Part shown: positions 1,863 through 33,358 of the stretch, piece after piece | How positions within the stretch are numbered: the first letter of the stretch is position 1 | Layout: each line of letters opens with the position of its first letter | DNA from: an uncultured Lachnospiraceae bacterium | Lineage (GTDB): Bacteria > Bacillota > Clostridia > Lachnospirales > Lachnospiraceae | Reading direction: 5' to 3' | Assembly (NCBI GenBank): GCA_945868435.1 | Contig: CAMBLG010000006.1 | Location: 1-64,000 of the forward strand | DNA length: 64,000 nucleotides | Position numbers and translations under genes: made by a program | The notes under the pieces: generated by a model | The model's input: the letters and a program-made list of their open reading frames with translations, nothing else | Told to the model about the DNA's origin: nothing | Databases searched by the model: none

Positions 1863-1983
1863 ATTACTGGGATTGAAAAGTACGATTTTCACCAGGATAG
1901 AGAAATCAATAACTCCCAGTTTGACGTTTCGATAAACCCCAAGTTGTAGGGGCAACAAGAATGGATGATATTTGTTAAAAAGG

Positions 1984-2020
1984 AAAATGGTACTTTCCGG
2001 TTATGGAGAGTGCCATTTTT
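1984..2020 (+). terminator. Hairpin terminator after the acetyltransferase
   Basis: A 15-bp stem (AAAATGGTACTTTCC pairing with GGAGAGTGCCATTTT through two G-U pairs) encloses a six-base loop and ends in a short T run. It lies about 120 bases after the acetyltransferase stop. The T tract is short, so termination may be weak. Confidence 0.55.
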
Positions 2021-2105
2021 CAAATTAAAGTTCAAAAAATATCTTGATAGCTCCGAAAAACACTTTTCGAGGAAAAATGATAGATCTAGTTCGAAGACAG
2101 ATTGC

Positions 2106-2431
2106 GTGGGTCTTGGAGAAGAAAAGTGTCTGAGAGACCCGAGAGGCAGCAGAATGGGAAAGGAAAAAGGATTCAGAAAGGTCCCGGAGCAGGCCGCCGT
2201 GGGTCTTGGAGAAGATAATAGTTTGAGAGACCCGAGAGGCAGCAGAATGGGAAAGGAAAAAGGATTCAGAAAGGTCCCGGAGCAGGCCGCCGTGGGTCTT
2301 GGAGAAGAAAATAGTCTGAGAGACCCGAGTGGCGTCTGATTAGGAAGGAAAAAGGGAATCAGAATGGTCTTGGAGCAGGCCGCCGTGGGCCTTGGAAACA
2401 AAAAATGTCTGAGAGACCCAAGCCGACACGG
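2106..2431. repeat. 93-bp tandem repeat, three full units and one partial
   Basis: Units begin at 2106, 2199, 2292 and 2385, exactly 93 bp apart. Each opens with GTGGGTCTTGGA (GTGGGCCTTGGA in the last) and contains CTGAGAGACCC about 25 bases later. The first two units are nearly identical, the third has diverged in its second half, and the fourth is cut after about 47 bp. Because 93 is divisible by three, frames stay open on both strands: a 31-residue repeat with core LRDPRGSRMGKEKG on the plus strand and one with PRPTAACSGTF on the minus strand. GGGTCT and AGACCC in each unit can form a short hairpin. I do not consider either open frame a proven gene. The block sits at the edge of the AT-rich patch. 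Confidence 0.9.
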
Positions 2432-2510
2432 AAATAAGAGAAAATGAACGTTGCAAATTTTTTGAGATGTAGTAGACTATAAATAGTATGGAAACTAAGG
2501 AGGATCTGGG

Positions 2511-2690
2511 ATGGGAAATGATAGATTCGAAAAGGTATATTCGCAGGGAGCTATGAATGTGACGGAGATTTGGATCGACAAGGAAAGCGGTGTGAATTAT
2601 CTGTATCATGCAAGCGGATATTCCGGTGGTTTGACGCCATTGTTAGACAGGGAAGGTAAGCCGGTCATTTCTCCGGTATATAATCGGTAA
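2511..2690 (+). CDS. Small DUF6440-like protein
   Basis: This 59-residue protein is short but convincing: an AAGGAGGAT ribosome site lies six bases before the ATG, and the sequence (VTEIWIDKESGVNYLYHASG, then GGLTPLLDREGKPVIS) matches my memory of the DUF6440 family, small single-domain proteins common in Firmicutes. The motif resembles a small beta-structured fold in which a ligand or metal is held by the YLYHASGYSGG loop, but no function is known. It stands alone between the repeat block and the DUF4190 gene. Confidence 0.8.
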   Translation: MGNDRFEKVYSQGAMNVTEIWIDKESGVNYLYHASGYSGGLTPLLDREGKPVISPVYNR

Positions 2691-14160: not shown

Positions 14161-14610
14161 ATGAAAAACTCGGTACATTGTACACCGATCGAGAAGGAAC
14201 TTGCGGAATGGCAGAGCGCATCCTATGAGAAAAATCCCAAACATCCGGAAAATCTAAAAATTCAATCTATTTCGGGCAACTGGGTTCGCTCAAAATCTGA
14301 GGCACTGATTGATATGATACTCTATGTCAATAAGATTCCTTTCCGGTACGAATGCGGCCTGCAATTGGGGAGCAGGCTTATGTATCCTGACTTTACGATT
14401 CGTCATCCCAAGACCGGAGAATTCTATTATTGGGAACATTTTGGATTGATGGATGTTGCTGAGTATCGGCAAAAGGTCTCGTTTAAGTTCAGTCTGTATA
14501 TGGAACATGGTATTTATCCGAACAGACAGCTGATCACGACTTATGAATCGACAGATGAGCCATTTGGTGCAAATCAAATTGAAAAAATTCTCAATCAATA
14601 TTTTGACTGA
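14161..14610 (+). pseudogene. 5'-truncated PD-(D/E)XK nuclease-like gene
   Basis: The 149-residue frame covers only the C-terminal part of a family of roughly 300-residue proteins that I recall as common in Lachnospiraceae. The nuclease-like core is visible: NWVRSKSEALIDMILYVNK (Glu), the IPFRYE segment, LMYPDFTIRHP (Asp) and FYYWEHFGLMD (Glu plus His). The N-terminal half is missing, and there is no ribosome site before the ATG, which abuts an upstream stop. I read it as a decayed remnant, although a shortened functional protein cannot be excluded. Upstream bases 14120-14160 hold nothing recognisable. Confidence 0.65.
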
Positions 14611-14736
14611 AGAAAATTCTTAGCCAATATTTTGGATGAAAAGGCGCATATTCGGTGGACAAAAATGTATTCTCATTCTCCTGCTTTTTATTGCACAGCA
14701 TAGAAAACACTTCTTGCCATGCATTGCCGAAAACAC

Positions 14737-14770: not shown

Positions 14771-15113
14771 CTTGAAAAAGGCGTAGAATGTTATATATCT
14801 TTCTGGTAAGAGAGATATGACGAGAAGCACATTTTCAATCAACCAACAAAGAAGAAAAACTATGACGAAGACAGTAGTTATGGCAGGAACGTGAAAGAGA
14901 GCCGGGATGGGTGAGAGCCGGTACAAGTAGTGTCATAATGAATATCACTTCTGAGTTGCGGCCCGAAAAAAGAACTGTTTTGAGTAGAAGCCGACGTATT
15001 TCCTACGTTACAGGGAACGTGTATAAGAGTATCGCAGTCGATACCCTAGTATATTGTAATCAGGTGGTATAACGCACGCCCGCGTCCTTATTACAGGATG
15101 CGGGCGTTTTTTG
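14771..15113 (+). ncRNA. Isoleucine T-box leader
   Basis: The leader shows T-box riboswitch landmarks in order: a Stem I region with GACGAAGACAGTAG and the AGAGAGCCGGGATGGGTGAGAGCCGG-like distal arm, a likely specifier ATC (Ile) at 14944-14946 inside AATATCACTTCTGAG, and the T-box bulge GGTGGTATAACGC at 15063-15075. The TGGT complements the ACCA end of tRNA-Ile. An intrinsic terminator follows at 15077-15113. Uncharged tRNA-Ile would stabilise the antiterminator and turn on ileS. An additional hairpin ATATCTTTCT/AGAGAGATAT sits at the 5' end. Exact 5' boundary is inferred from the promoter. Confidence 0.85.
15077..15113 (+). terminator. T-box terminator
   Basis: CGCCCGCGTCCT pairs with AGGATGCGGGCG (one G-U pair) around TATTAC and is followed by TTTTTT. 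Its 5' arm overlaps the T-box antiterminator, as expected for a regulated terminator. Confidence 0.9.
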
Positions 15114-15309
15114 TTATGGCGACGAGGAAAATGGACACAGTGCTTGCACAAGTGGACATTTGACGACCGCTAATCAGAGCGAGATTCGCAAAGCGTATCT
15201 CGTCTCTGTGTAACATACAAGATCATTCTGCGGAAAAACCGCGTAAGCGGCGGAATCCGGGATGACAGTCGTAGTGACGCGATACAGAGATTGATACAAG
15301 GAGGACACT
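15114..15309 (+). other. Leader between the T-box terminator and ileS
   Basis: No gene is seen in these 196 bases. They contain one strong hairpin (GCGAGATTCGC/GCGTATCTCGT near 15178-15205) and a CCGC/GCGG hairpin near 15239-15250, then AAGGAGGA just before the ileS start. A role in transcript processing or translation is possible but unsupported. Confidence 0.5.
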
Positions 15310-18300
15310 ATGTACAACAAAGTAGACACCAACATGAACTTTGTTGAGCGCGAGAAGGAAGTCGAGAAGTTCTGGCGCGACAACGACATCTTTAAGAAAT
15401 CGATGGAGAATCGCAAGGAAGGCGAGACCTATACCTTTTATGACGGACCGCCAACGGCTAACGGAAAGCCGCATATCGGACACGTGGAGACGAGAACCAT
15501 CAAGGATATGATTCCGAGATTCCAGACCATGAAGGGCAAGTATGTACCGCGTAAGGCAGGCTGGGATACCCACGGACTTCCGGTGGAAATCGAGGTGGAG
15601 AAGCTTCTGGGACTGGATGGAAAGGATCAGATCGAGGAGTATGGTCTGGAGCCTTTCATCAAGAAGTGTAAGGAATCCGTATGGAAATACAAGGGCATGT
15701 GGGAGGATTTCTCAGGAACGGTCGGTTTCTGGGCTGATATGGATGACCCGTATGTTACCTATGACGATAACTTTATTGAGTCCGAGTGGTGGGCGTTGAA
15801 GGAAATCTGGAACAAGGGGTTACTGTACAAGGGCTTTAAAATTGTTCCGTATTGCCCGCGCTGCGGTACACCGCTTTCTGCACAGGAGGTGGCACAGGGC
15901 TATAAGACGGTAAAGGAGCGCTCTGCAATTGTCCGCTTTAAGGTAGTAGGCGAGGATGCATACTTCCTGGCATGGACAACGACCCCGTGGACACTTCCGA
16001 GCAACGTGGCACTTTGTGTGAACCCGGATGATACCTATATCAAGGTAAAAGCGGCAGATGGTTATACCTATTACCTTGCGGAGGCACTTTCCGAGAAGGT
16101 GCTGGGCGGACTTGGCAATGACGAAGCGGGCGTCAAAGCCTTTGAAGTGTTGGAAACCTACAAGGGAAAAGATCTGGAGTACAAGGAGTACGAGCCACTG
16201 TTTGACTGTGCTAAGGAAGTCGCTGACAAGCAGGGAAAGAAGGGCTTTTTCGTGACCTGCGACAGCTATGTAACTATGACCGATGGTACCGGTATCGTGC
16301 ACATTGCACCGGCGTTTGGTGAGGACGATGCCAACGTGGGACGCAATTACGATCTTCCGTTCGTACAGTTTGTCAACGGAAAAGGCGAGCTGACGGAGGA
16401 AACCCCGTTTGCAGGTCTGTTTGTCAAGAAGGCAGACCCGGAGGTACTCAAGAACCTGGATGGAAGAAACCAGCTGTTTGAGGCACCGAAGTTTGAACAT
16501 GAGTATCCACACTGTTGGAGATGTGATACGCCGTTAATCTACTATGCAAGAGAGTCCTGGTATATCAAGGAGACGGCAGTCAAGGACGATCTGATCCGCA
16601 ACAATAATACGGTCAACTGGATTCCGGAGTCCATCGGTTCCGGTCGATTCGGAAACTGGCTGGAGAACATTCAGGACTGGGCAATCTCACGTAACCGTTA
16701 CTGGGGAACTCCGCTGAACATCTGGGAGTGTGAGTGCGGACACAGAGAGTGCATCGGAAGCCGTGCGGAGCTGGCAGAAAAAGCACAGGATCCGAAGGCG
16801 GCTGAAGTAGAGCTTCACAGACCATATATCGATGAGGTGAAGCTGATCTGTCCGGAGTGCGGAAAGAAGATGACCCGTGTACCGGAAGTGCTGGATTGCT
16901 GGTTTGATTCCGGAGCAATGCCTTTTGCACAGCATCACTATCCGTTTGAGAATAAGGAGCTGTTCGAGCAGCAGTTCCCGGCTCAGTTTATCTCTGAGGC
17001 CGTCGACCAGACCCGTGGATGGTTCCATTCCCTGATGGCAGAATCTACGCTGCTCTTTAACAAGGCTCCGTATGAGAATGTTATCGTTCTTGGTCACGTG
17101 CAGGATGAGAATGGACAGAAAATGTCCAAGTCCAAGGGCAATGCGGTGGATCCGTTTGATGCGTTGAAGACCTATGGCGCAGATGCAATCCGTTGGTATT
17201 TCTATACGGCAAGTGCACCATGGATTCCAAAGCGTTTCTCCGGCAAGCTTGTGCAGGAAGGACAGCGCAAGTTTATGGGAACTTTGTGGAATACCTATGC
17301 ATTTTTCGTTCTGTATGCGAATATTGATAATTTTGATGCGACGAAATATACGTTGGATTATGAGAAGCTTACCGTGATGGATAAGTGGCTCTTGTCCAAG
17401 CTGAATTCCGCAGTGGCAGCAGTGGATGATAATCTGGAGAATTACCGGATTCCGGAGGCTGCACGAGCTCTGGAAGAGTTCGTGGATGATATGAGTAACT
17501 GGTACGTGCGCCGTTCCCGCGAGCGCTTCTGGGCAAAAGGCATGGAGCAGGATAAGATCAATGCGTATATGACCTTGTATACGGCACTGGTTACCATCAG
17601 TAAGGCTGCAGCGCCGATGATTCCGTTTATGACAGAGGATATTTATCGCAATCTGGTTTGCTCTATCGATCCGTCTGCGCCGGAAAGTGTACACCTGTGT
17701 GATTTCCCGACTGTGGATGAGAAGGTGATTGACAAGGAACTTGAGGCTGCTATGGATGAGGTCTTAAAGATTGTTGTCATGGGTCGTGCATGCCGCAATA
17801 GCGCCAATATCAAGAATCGTCAGCCAATCGGAACCATGTATGTGAAGGCGGAGCGCAAACTGAGTGACTTCTTTGTTGCCATTATTGCCGATGAGTTGAA
17901 CGTAAAGAATGTATGCTTCACCGATGATGTGTCAAGTTATACGGATTACCAGTTCAAGCCACAGCTTCGCACCGTTGGTCCGAAATATGGCAAATACTTA
18001 AAGCAGATCCAGGAAACTTTGGCAGGACTGGACGGAAATAAGGCAATGGCAGAACTTAAGTCAGAAGGTGCGCTTAAGCTTGACAGTATCAGCGACGAGG
18101 TTGTATTATTAGAAGAGGATTTGCTGATTACCATGACACAGGCAGAGGGCTTCGTGACGGAAGGTGATAACACGGTTACTGTTGTTATGGACACCAAACT
18201 GACACCGGAGCTTATAGAGGAAGGCTTTGTCCGTGAGCTGATCAGCAAGATTCAGACCATGCGTAAGGAAGCAGGTTTTGAGGTGATGGATCACATTGCA

Positions 18301-31846: not shown

Positions 31847-33358
31847 ATGGATCTATTGATCAAGATCGCGATTGCGGCAGCAATCATTGTGATACTCATT
31901 GTTTTACTTTGCATTGGATATGTGAAGGCTCCACCGGATATGGCATATATCATTTCCGGATTCAAGAAGAAATCCAAGATCGTAATCGGAAAGGCTACCA
32001 TACGAATTCCATTTTTTGAGCGTTTGGATAAGCTGAATCTCCGATTGATCCCGATTGATGTTAAGACCAGCAACGCGGTGCCTACCGCAGACTACATCAA
32101 TATCAATGTAGATGCTACCGTCAACGTGAAGATCAGCAATGACGCTGAACGTCTTCGCTTGGCAGCAGAGAATTTCCTGAATAAGAACACGGAATACATT
32201 GCCGGTGTAGCCCGTGAAGTATTGGAAGGAAATGTCCGTGAGATCGTCGGTAAGATGAAACTGGAGGAGATGGTTTCCGACCGTCAGAAATTTGCTAATC
32301 TGGTTAAGGAGAACGCGGAGCCGGATCTGGCTGCCATGGGACTGGATATCATCAGTTTTAATGTTCAGAACTTTGTGGACGGCAATGAGGTGATCGAGAA
32401 CCTTGGTATTGACAATATTGTCAAAATCAAGAAGGCAGCAGCCATCGCAAGGGCAGAGAGTGAAAGAGACATCAAGGTGGCACAGGCATCTGCGGATAAG
32501 GAATCCAATGATGCGGCTGTAGCAGCACAGACCGAGATTGCCAAGAAACAGAATGAGCTGGCAATCAAGAAATCCGAGCTCCAGATGGAGGCAGACACCA
32601 AGAAGGCTATGGCGGATGCGGCTTACGAGATTCAGAAGGAGGAACAGCGTAAGACTATCGAGGTTACCACTGCCAATGCGGATATTGCGAAGCAGGAACG
32701 AGAGATTGAGTTAAAGCAGAAGGAGGTTGCTGTGAAGGAGCAGGCTCTGGAAGCTGAGATCAAGAAGCAGGCCGAGGCAGACAAGTATGCCGCTCAGCAG
32801 AGAGCAGACGCAGCGCTCTATCAGCGCCAGAAGGATGCGGAGGCAAAACAGTTTGAGGCACAGCGTGAAGCTGAGGCGCGTAAGGCCCAGGCAGAAGCCG
32901 ACCGATACTCCAAGGAGCAGGAGGCAGCAGGTATCCGTGCGGTAGGTGAAGCGGAGGCATCTGCAATCCAGGCCAAGGGGATTGCGGAGGCAGAGGCAAT
33001 GGAGAAGAAGGCAGAGGCTTACGCGAAGTACAATAAGGCTGCGGTCGCAGAGATGATGATTAAAGTCCTTCCGGAGATTGCCGGCAAGATTGCAGAGCCT
33101 TTGGGACAGATTGATAAGATCACAATCATCGGTGGGGGTGATGGTGCCGGAAATGGTGTGGATCAGGTTGCCGGAAACGTACCGATTGTGATGACGAAGC
33201 TCTTTGAGAGTATGAAGGAGGCAACGGGAATCGATCTGGCTGAGATTGTCAAGGCAGATACATATGATGCGAAGGTCAACCGCAACGTCAATGTCACAGG
33301 ACTTGACGGTGTAAATCTGGTCGTACAGAATAAGGAAAACGGCGAAAATCTCCTGTAA
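31847..33358 (+). CDS. Flotillin-family protein
   Basis: The 503-residue protein has an N-terminal membrane segment (residues 4-26), an SPFH/band-7 domain (about 28-200, with PPDMAYIISGFKKKSKIVIGKATIRIPFFERLDKL) and a long Glu/Ala/Lys-rich coiled coil (about 200-410). It is similar to YuaG/FloT flotillins, which form membrane scaffolds. It resembles full-length family members in size. The ATG at 31847 follows AGAAGGGAGA. It has its own promoter and a strong terminator, so it is a single-gene unit. Companion yuaF-type genes are not seen. Confidence 0.9.
   Translation: MDLLIKIAIAAAIIVILIVLLCIGYVKAPPDMAYIISGFKKKSKIVIGKATIRIPFFERLDKLNLRLIPIDVKTSNAVPTADYININVDATVNVKISNDAERLRLAAENFLNKNTEYIAGVAREVLEGNVREIVGKMKLEEMVSDRQKFANLVKENAEPDLAAMGLDIISFNVQNFVDGNEVIENLGIDNIVKIKKAAAIARAESERDIKVAQASADKESNDAAVAAQTEIAKKQNELAIKKSELQMEADTKKAMADAAYEIQKEEQRKTIEVTTANADIAKQEREIELKQKEVAVKEQALEAEIKKQAEADKYAAQQRADAALYQRQKDAEAKQFEAQREAEARKAQAEADRYSKEQEAAGIRAVGEAEASAIQAKGIAEAEAMEKKAEAYAKYNKAAVAEMMIKVLPEIAGKIAEPLGQIDKITIIGGGDGAGNGVDQVAGNVPIVMTKLFESMKEATGIDLAEIVKADTYDAKVNRNVNVTGLDGVNLVVQNKENGENLL

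Follow-up and report, generated by a model that had tools for sequence, protein, structure and literature searches.

The repeat array and its surroundings

The window, that is, the whole 64,000-nucleotide stretch analysed here (positions 1 to 64,000 of contig CAMBLG010000006.1, assembly GCA_945868435.1, from an uncultured Lachnospiraceae bacterium), carries on its forward strand a tandem array at 2105-2419 that is composed of four 33-bp palindromic cores placed 93 bp apart. Tandem Repeats Finder (TRF) reported the array with a period of 93, 3.4 copies and a score of 479. A preliminary interpretation made without database searches, referred to below as the sequence-only reading, had described a 93-bp period with three full units and a partial fourth, and this was reproduced, the units starting at 2108, 2201 and 2294 and the partial one at 2387. 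The first two units were correctly called almost identical (89 of 93 positions agree, against 78 of 93 for units 2 and 3 and for units 1 and 3). When the units were aligned with their matches elsewhere in the genome, the 33-bp core rather than the 93-bp unit proved to be the conserved element. In it, two inverted 6-bp arms enclose a purine-rich middle of 21 bp, in most cases with an A-tract. Cores 1 to 3 (2108-2140, 2201-2233 and 2294-2326, all on the + strand) have the form GGGTCT-N21-AGACCC, and the left arm of core 4, the last of the array (2387-2419, + strand), is GGGCCT, one mismatch away; the earlier statement that each unit holds GGGTCT and AGACCC is thus accurate for three units and not for the fourth. 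The cores are separated by three 60-bp spacers on the same strand (2141-2200, 2234-2293 and 2327-2386, cores 2 and 3 lying between them within 2141-2386), relatives of which are present in other arrays of the same genome (a spacer cluster of 10 pairs from 5 loci). Among 50 window tiles of 1,260 bp each, a repeated 6-bp palindrome with a loop of 14-26 bases was found only in the array's own tile.

Upstream of the array lies a gene for a GNAT acetyltransferase (1314-1862, + strand; PF00583, E 7e-14), which is encoded on the purine-rich strand of the array, and a terminator-like hairpin with a T run (1989-2020, + strand) was recognized about 85 bp before core 1 using a home-made consensus scan and the sequence itself. 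The idea of a terminator beside every array was rejected, since the same scan placed a same-strand terminator within 100 bp upstream of only 3 of 20 array entries in this genome and 0 of 24 in other genomes. Two open frames run through the array, one of 124 aa on the + strand (1965-2339) and one of 170 aa on the - strand (1889-2401). Both were judged not to be genes, the former being broken in other arrays and the latter having no homologue at E 0.01. The 10 protein-database matches to the + frame are versions of the window locus itself, and the short frames that had been suggested for other genomes were found in that form only. Five metagenomic versions (P0001, P0002, P0006, P0007 and P0009) have two cores compared with the four of the window, as read from their translations.

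Dispersal of the core

The exact pattern GGGTCT-N21-AGACCC occurs 80 times in the assembly that contains the window (G000; 2.57 Mb, 84% complete), and the reversed control pattern 0 times; a variant of the core followed by RAG occurs at 77 places. These cores form approximately 17 array sites, one of them single-core, if contigs ending in one array are treated as one site. Contigs C1, C4, C7, C15, C23 and C26 terminate in or very near arrays. The arrays therefore seem to interrupt the assembly, and the core counts are probably underestimates. The arrays lie between longer open reading frames (ORFs), and only frames through the repeats overlap them, given the choice of ORFs made here.

In a scan of the genus, the core was detected in 2 of 62 genomes (80 copies in G000 and 12 in G021). 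In the family, 17 of 397 genomes had at least one match and only G000 (80), G298 (22) and G365 (5) had more than two; the reversed core also gave one or two matches in many genomes. The first match in G021 (L020) is apparently spurious, an AT-rich stretch, yet this genome has 12 exact cores, one of which (C194) is without an A-tract. A two-core pattern was found in 19 stretches of the genome collection, 17 of them in metagenome-assembled genomes of Lachnospiraceae or Roseburia, 7 of these 17 being named from deer. The matches in a Caldiserica (L049) and a Streptomyces (L050) genome were judged apparently unrelated and left out. With G475 apparently equivalent to G021 (L036 and L058 are the same sequence) and G476 to G298 (same coordinates), nine distinct Lachnospiraceae genomes are known to carry the GGGTCT core; none was found on viral contigs. 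The existence of other copies, which a unit search against Lachnospiraceae genomes had been proposed to reveal, contradicts a local accident.

Thirty neighbouring proteins were scanned against Pfam and displayed no functional theme, at least three flanking proteins being without a Pfam match. Eleven co-directional gene pairs of the own genome were judged by hand, three of them on contigs assumed to be adjacent; coding and purine-rich strands coincide in 10 of these pairs, or in all 11 when the orientation of L060 is read from its flanks instead of its A-tract. The direction of replication, as well as transcription, may be the cause of this bias.

Spacing and orientation of the cores

In the own genome, the cores are 81/82, 91-93, 103 or 114 bp apart and nearly always arranged head to tail; the GGGTCT arrays of G021 are likewise head to tail, at 82/83 bp. 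Facing pairs 51/52 bp apart were observed in other genomes, and ten loci in G474, G477 and G478 contain four-core sets with a spacing of about 81-51-81 bp (four exactly so, five within one base and one 91-51-80), some of their cores carrying up to three arm mismatches. By the A-tract rule, 4 of these 10 loci have the mirror order forward-forward-reverse-reverse and 6 a mixed order.

The spacing classes are approximately 10.3 bp apart, which is one turn of DNA. When 94 exact adjacent core pairs were grouped by similarity into 49 spacer clusters, the periodicity reached R 0.91 at 10.25 bp, compared with at most 0.45 in 3,000 random sets; an old common ancestry is possible for some of the clusters, and the distances 132, 153 and 184 are sums of others. 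If only the six basic classes (51.5, 70.5, 81, 92, 103 and 114) are considered, 0.6% of random sets fit equally well. The same classes recur with different arms: all 16 spacings below 200 bp between exact GGGCAT-N21-ATGCCC cores are 51, 52, 80, 81, 92 or 132, imperfect cores, left out of the 16, adding 82, 143 and 154, and two GGGCAT loci of G021 read forward-81-forward-52-reverse-81-reverse. Divergent relatives of the gene described below (L158, L159, L163, L164 and L152) are adjoined by tight palindrome arrays with periods of 53/54, 64, 75, 62 and 86 bp, in which the steps are near one turn and the fitted period is nearer 11.

A nuclease-like protein family beside the arrays

An all-against-all comparison of ORFs from the array loci identified one protein family, hereafter the partner, beside GGGTCT arrays in five carriers; other neighbours common to several loci, response regulators among them, also emerged. 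The distance between gene and array is 53 bp in G000 (L014), 74 bp in G473 (L040), 85 bp in G474 (L054), 244 bp in G479 (L087) and 250 bp in G478 (L085), and thus at most 250 bp in 5 of 9 carriers, where 0.15 chance adjacencies were estimated by hand at about 2,500 genes per genome. Whole-genome searches yielded partner matches in 8 of 9 carriers and 6 of 13 non-carriers (1 to 5 per genome where present, fragments included). The remaining carrier, G477, has 15 exact GGGTCT cores and several four-core sets without a detectable partner gene (L045, L047, L057, L078-L084).

The partner has about 255 aa, with a coiled-coil N-terminus and a C-terminus resembling PD-(D/E)XK restriction endonucleases. 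It had no Pfam match over the cut-off, and its sequence matches among solved structures were at chance level (best E 0.33 and 0.18). Fold comparison indicated an alpha-beta core as in TnsA, Bax1 and VRR_NUC, of PD-(D/E)XK-like type. In the alignment, PDF is invariant and the E of WEHFG nearly so, and the lysine position is not K. At E 0.001, 2,169 homologous proteins were retrieved, and 46 of 150 family genomes gave matches, including fragments and cases in which the domain sits in a far longer frame. The window itself contains a remnant of a second family copy (14173-14604, + strand), which matches query residues 109-252 only, at 65% identity. A 29-bp repeat of 2.2 copies at 14580-14642 overlaps the end of this remnant, and a full-length relative of it is the 266-aa metagenomic protein P0012 (105 member sequences).

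Carriage of the partner by phages or plasmids was rejected. No plasmid match covered 80% of the query; three short unannotated phage-labelled records matched, two of them with 27-28% identity across 81-96% of the query; and 8 of the 9 viral-contig loci with the domain matched the C-terminal part only.

Palindromes with other arms and their co-variation with the protein

Palindromes that share the geometry of the core but carry different arms (GGGCAT, GGGCGT, GTATCT, GGACAT, GGGTAC, GGGTAT and more) flank partner genes. For 57 of 59 loci (L149 and L157, in which the gene was not located, were left out), a repeated palindrome with 6-bp arms and a loop of 14-26, a range chosen post hoc, was found within 600 bp of the gene in 31 copies (68,529 bp) and in the next 600 bp in 4 (61,045 bp). 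None of the 57 had one in any of ten shuffles of the flanks, nor did control loci, namely the 3-prime flanks of 9 domain-bearing loci on viral contigs and 6 Y1-transposase loci.

Arm identity and protein identity vary together (Mantel r 0.60, P 5e-5, 31 of the 59 loci, the arms of single palindromes such as those at L109, L120, L121 and L125 being read from gene flanks), and they do so within a close subfamily of 19 loci (0.48, P 3.5e-4). GGGCAT cores number 25 in G021, 5 in G298 and 4 in G010, each of which has the gene with an adjoining GGGCAT palindrome. G474 (10) and G103 (6) have them too, though a GGGCAT-linked gene was not identified there; G046 has 1, and none occurs in the remaining 16 of the 22 genomes, among them the own genome. 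At L129, similar TTTTTC/GAAAAA palindromes flank a divergent gene (1485-2370) on both sides, like the ends of a mobile element.

Signs of copying and rearrangement

Seven copies of a repeat with GGGCAT cores (L176-L182) are located on six contigs of G474, with pairwise identities of about 78-98% over pieces of up to 509 bp. The repeat is composite, L177 and L178 each lacking a block of about 80 bp found in others. A common left end was seen in 6 of 7 copies, and on the right the copies either end differently or run into the end of a contig. These near-identical copies at several sites point to copying. One spacer cluster of the own genome is common to five loci. Neither a target-site duplication nor an empty site was established.

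Interpretation and alternative explanations

The repeats and their dispersal, the spacing classes, the linkage to a gene family and the co-variation of arm and protein are the observations to be explained. The explanation preferred here, to which a probability of roughly 0.6 was assigned, is that the arrays are DNA sites of the nuclease-like partner and disperse in the manner of REPINs (described below) without a RAYT transposase. Under this explanation, the 33-bp core would be the recognition unit of the ~255-aa family, relatives of which would pair with different arm sequences. Dimers or larger assemblies would bind their cognate arms and, because cores are about whole turns apart, protein bound to several cores would be aligned on one helical face. 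With several cores brought together in this way, cuts or nicks might then promote copying into new intergenic sites as well as the gain or loss of units. We infer binding, cutting or nicking, and a causal part in copying; on the sequence evidence, recognition by the protein is better supported than movement by it. A mobile repeat was the best supported of the three possibilities offered in the sequence-only reading, the core being dispersed and present in eight other Lachnospiraceae genomes, although movement itself was not seen. The broader proposal is more tentative and falls just short of an even bet. It envisages a widespread class of repeat-nuclease systems in Lachnospiraceae that originated independently of REP/RAYT, in which short PD-(D/E)XK-like proteins, differing in the palindromes they recognize, would seed the host genome with arrays of cognate cores at whole-turn distances, and cuts or nicks by the protein on a nucleoprotein complex of several cores would spread and rearrange these arrays.

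An unlikely but serious alternative is that the arrays are binding sites through which a catalytically dead nuclease shapes the chromosome or regulates genes, their spread being incidental. Helical-turn spacing fits a cooperative complex on one DNA face, the expected catalytic lysine is seemingly absent from the partner, and both the position of arrays between longer ORFs and the agreement of purine-rich and coding strands would suit such a role. The neighbouring proteins share no functional theme, however, and the near-identical copies in G474 indicate copying.

We regard as improbable an anti-phage device in which the nuclease domain attacks invaders and the arrays store information, mark self or titrate the protein. 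The C-terminal domain does match PDC-S68, a PADLOC candidate, at its ends (E 1e-29), as well as proteins in seven plasmid records, five of which are annotated as AAA family ATPases. Those proteins are larger (the PDC-S68 profiles have 1,202-1,273 positions), the nine viral loci with the domain are without repeated palindromes in their 3-prime flanks, and most arrays are not beside the gene.

Hairpins transcribed in 3-prime regions as a structured RNA, another of the earlier suggestions, are more doubtful still. The array folds better than shuffled sequences (z of -3.5 for the + strand, -2.2 for the - strand), the own genome has the sense-strand bias, and in 69 cores from other genomes the two positions immediately flanking the arms form a Watson-Crick pair in 67%, compared with 29% expected. 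In 79 own cores, however, the figure is 34% against 38% expected, and the outer pair is mostly constant per genome (by eye), as would be expected equally of a symmetric half-site. The two Rfam matches reported up to E 5 for window positions 1900-2600 are both far below gathering scores, mirror-order arrays cannot have a single sense strand, and core distances keep DNA turns.

That the array is a coding repeat or arose as a local tandem-repeat accident is barely credible: both frames are open through the window array with its 31-codon period, and copy number differs among versions of the locus, but the 80 exact cores are dispersed, periods of 81/82, 91/92 and 103 bp in many other arrays break the frame, and neither frame matched a Pfam family above the cut-off, so that the suggested repeat-protein gene was abandoned.

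Other features of the window

TRF also reported two copies of a 24-bp tandem repeat at 33131-33177. The segment at 14850-15330, which precedes a gene starting MYNKVDTNMNFVEREKEVEKFW and resembling isoleucyl-tRNA synthetase, is presumably a T-box-like leader.

Comparison with known systems

In TIGR-Tas systems, the Tas protein has a Nop-type domain; the partner had no Pfam match above the cut-off, and its fold matches are PD-(D/E)XK-like. Unlike the spacers of a clustered regularly interspaced short palindromic repeats (CRISPR) array, many own-array spacers are near copies of each other and some are common to several loci; no cas gene was present among the 30 flanking proteins, and no genome-wide search for cas genes was made. 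Mycobacterial interspersed repetitive units and variable number tandem repeats (MIRU/VNTR) are tandem intergenic repeats with a period of 50-100 bp and variable copy number. The arrays resemble them in period and in copy number that differs among locus versions, and differ in their conserved palindromic core, in spacings that fall into discrete classes and keep phase, and in the gene family linked to them.

With respect to the protein, the TnsA endonuclease of Tn7 (PDB 1f1z, 1t0f) gave only middling Z scores in the fold comparison, as did Bax1, VRR_NUC, a Holliday-junction resolvase and Can2. The C-terminal ~125 residues are homologous to PDC-S68 and plasmid AAA ATPases (in the plasmid records, 31-43% identity across 42-64% of the query), but the partner is short, has its own coiled-coil and often has adjoining palindromes. 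The dispersed near-identical copies, such as the seven in G474, are reminiscent of transposable elements or miniature inverted-repeat transposable elements.

The closest parallel is with repetitive extragenic palindromic (REP) sequences, bacterial interspersed mosaic elements (BIMEs) and REP doublets forming hairpins (REPINs). As outlined in PMC2817692 and PMC3116915, these are intergenic palindromes in ordered, many-copy dispersed arrays, copies of the repeat flank the cognate gene for a REP-associated tyrosine transposase (RAYT, TnpA-REP), different genes go with different repeat types, and repeat and protein sequences co-vary. REP palindromes have a GTAG or CGTC tag at the foot, according to PMC3733652. 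Almost no base outside the arms is conserved in the 69 other-genome cores, no dedicated search for GTAG or CGTC being made, and the 79 own cores have CgT before and gAG after the arms. The cores differ from REPs in having 6-bp arms around 21 bp and distances that follow DNA turns. In REPINs, inverted doublets form the copied unit; here, other genomes have 51/52-bp facing pairs and mirror four-core sets, and nearly every array of the own genome is head to tail. RAYT was rejected as the partner: PF01797 (IS200/IS605 Y1 HUH) had 0 matches in G000, G298, G365, G474, G477 and G479 and 1-2 matches in G021, G478 and G473, some assemblies being incomplete.

No published description of this repeat and protein family was found in the open-access literature searched, and the number of homologues and their occurrence in 46 of 150 family genomes suggest that such proteins are numerous, though unannotated, in gut bacteria. 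The pairs of protein relative and arm sequence would make a specificity code directly testable, and contacts between proteins on DNA could be read out clearly from the helical-turn spacing. As with REP/RAYT, a gene is flanked by, and co-varies with, its own repeats, but the gene belongs to another protein family, PD-(D/E)XK-like and not an HUH Y1 transposase; if the preferred explanation is true, the arrays would represent a second, unrelated route to populations of palindromic repeats beside RAYT/REPIN, built on a restriction-enzyme-like fold.
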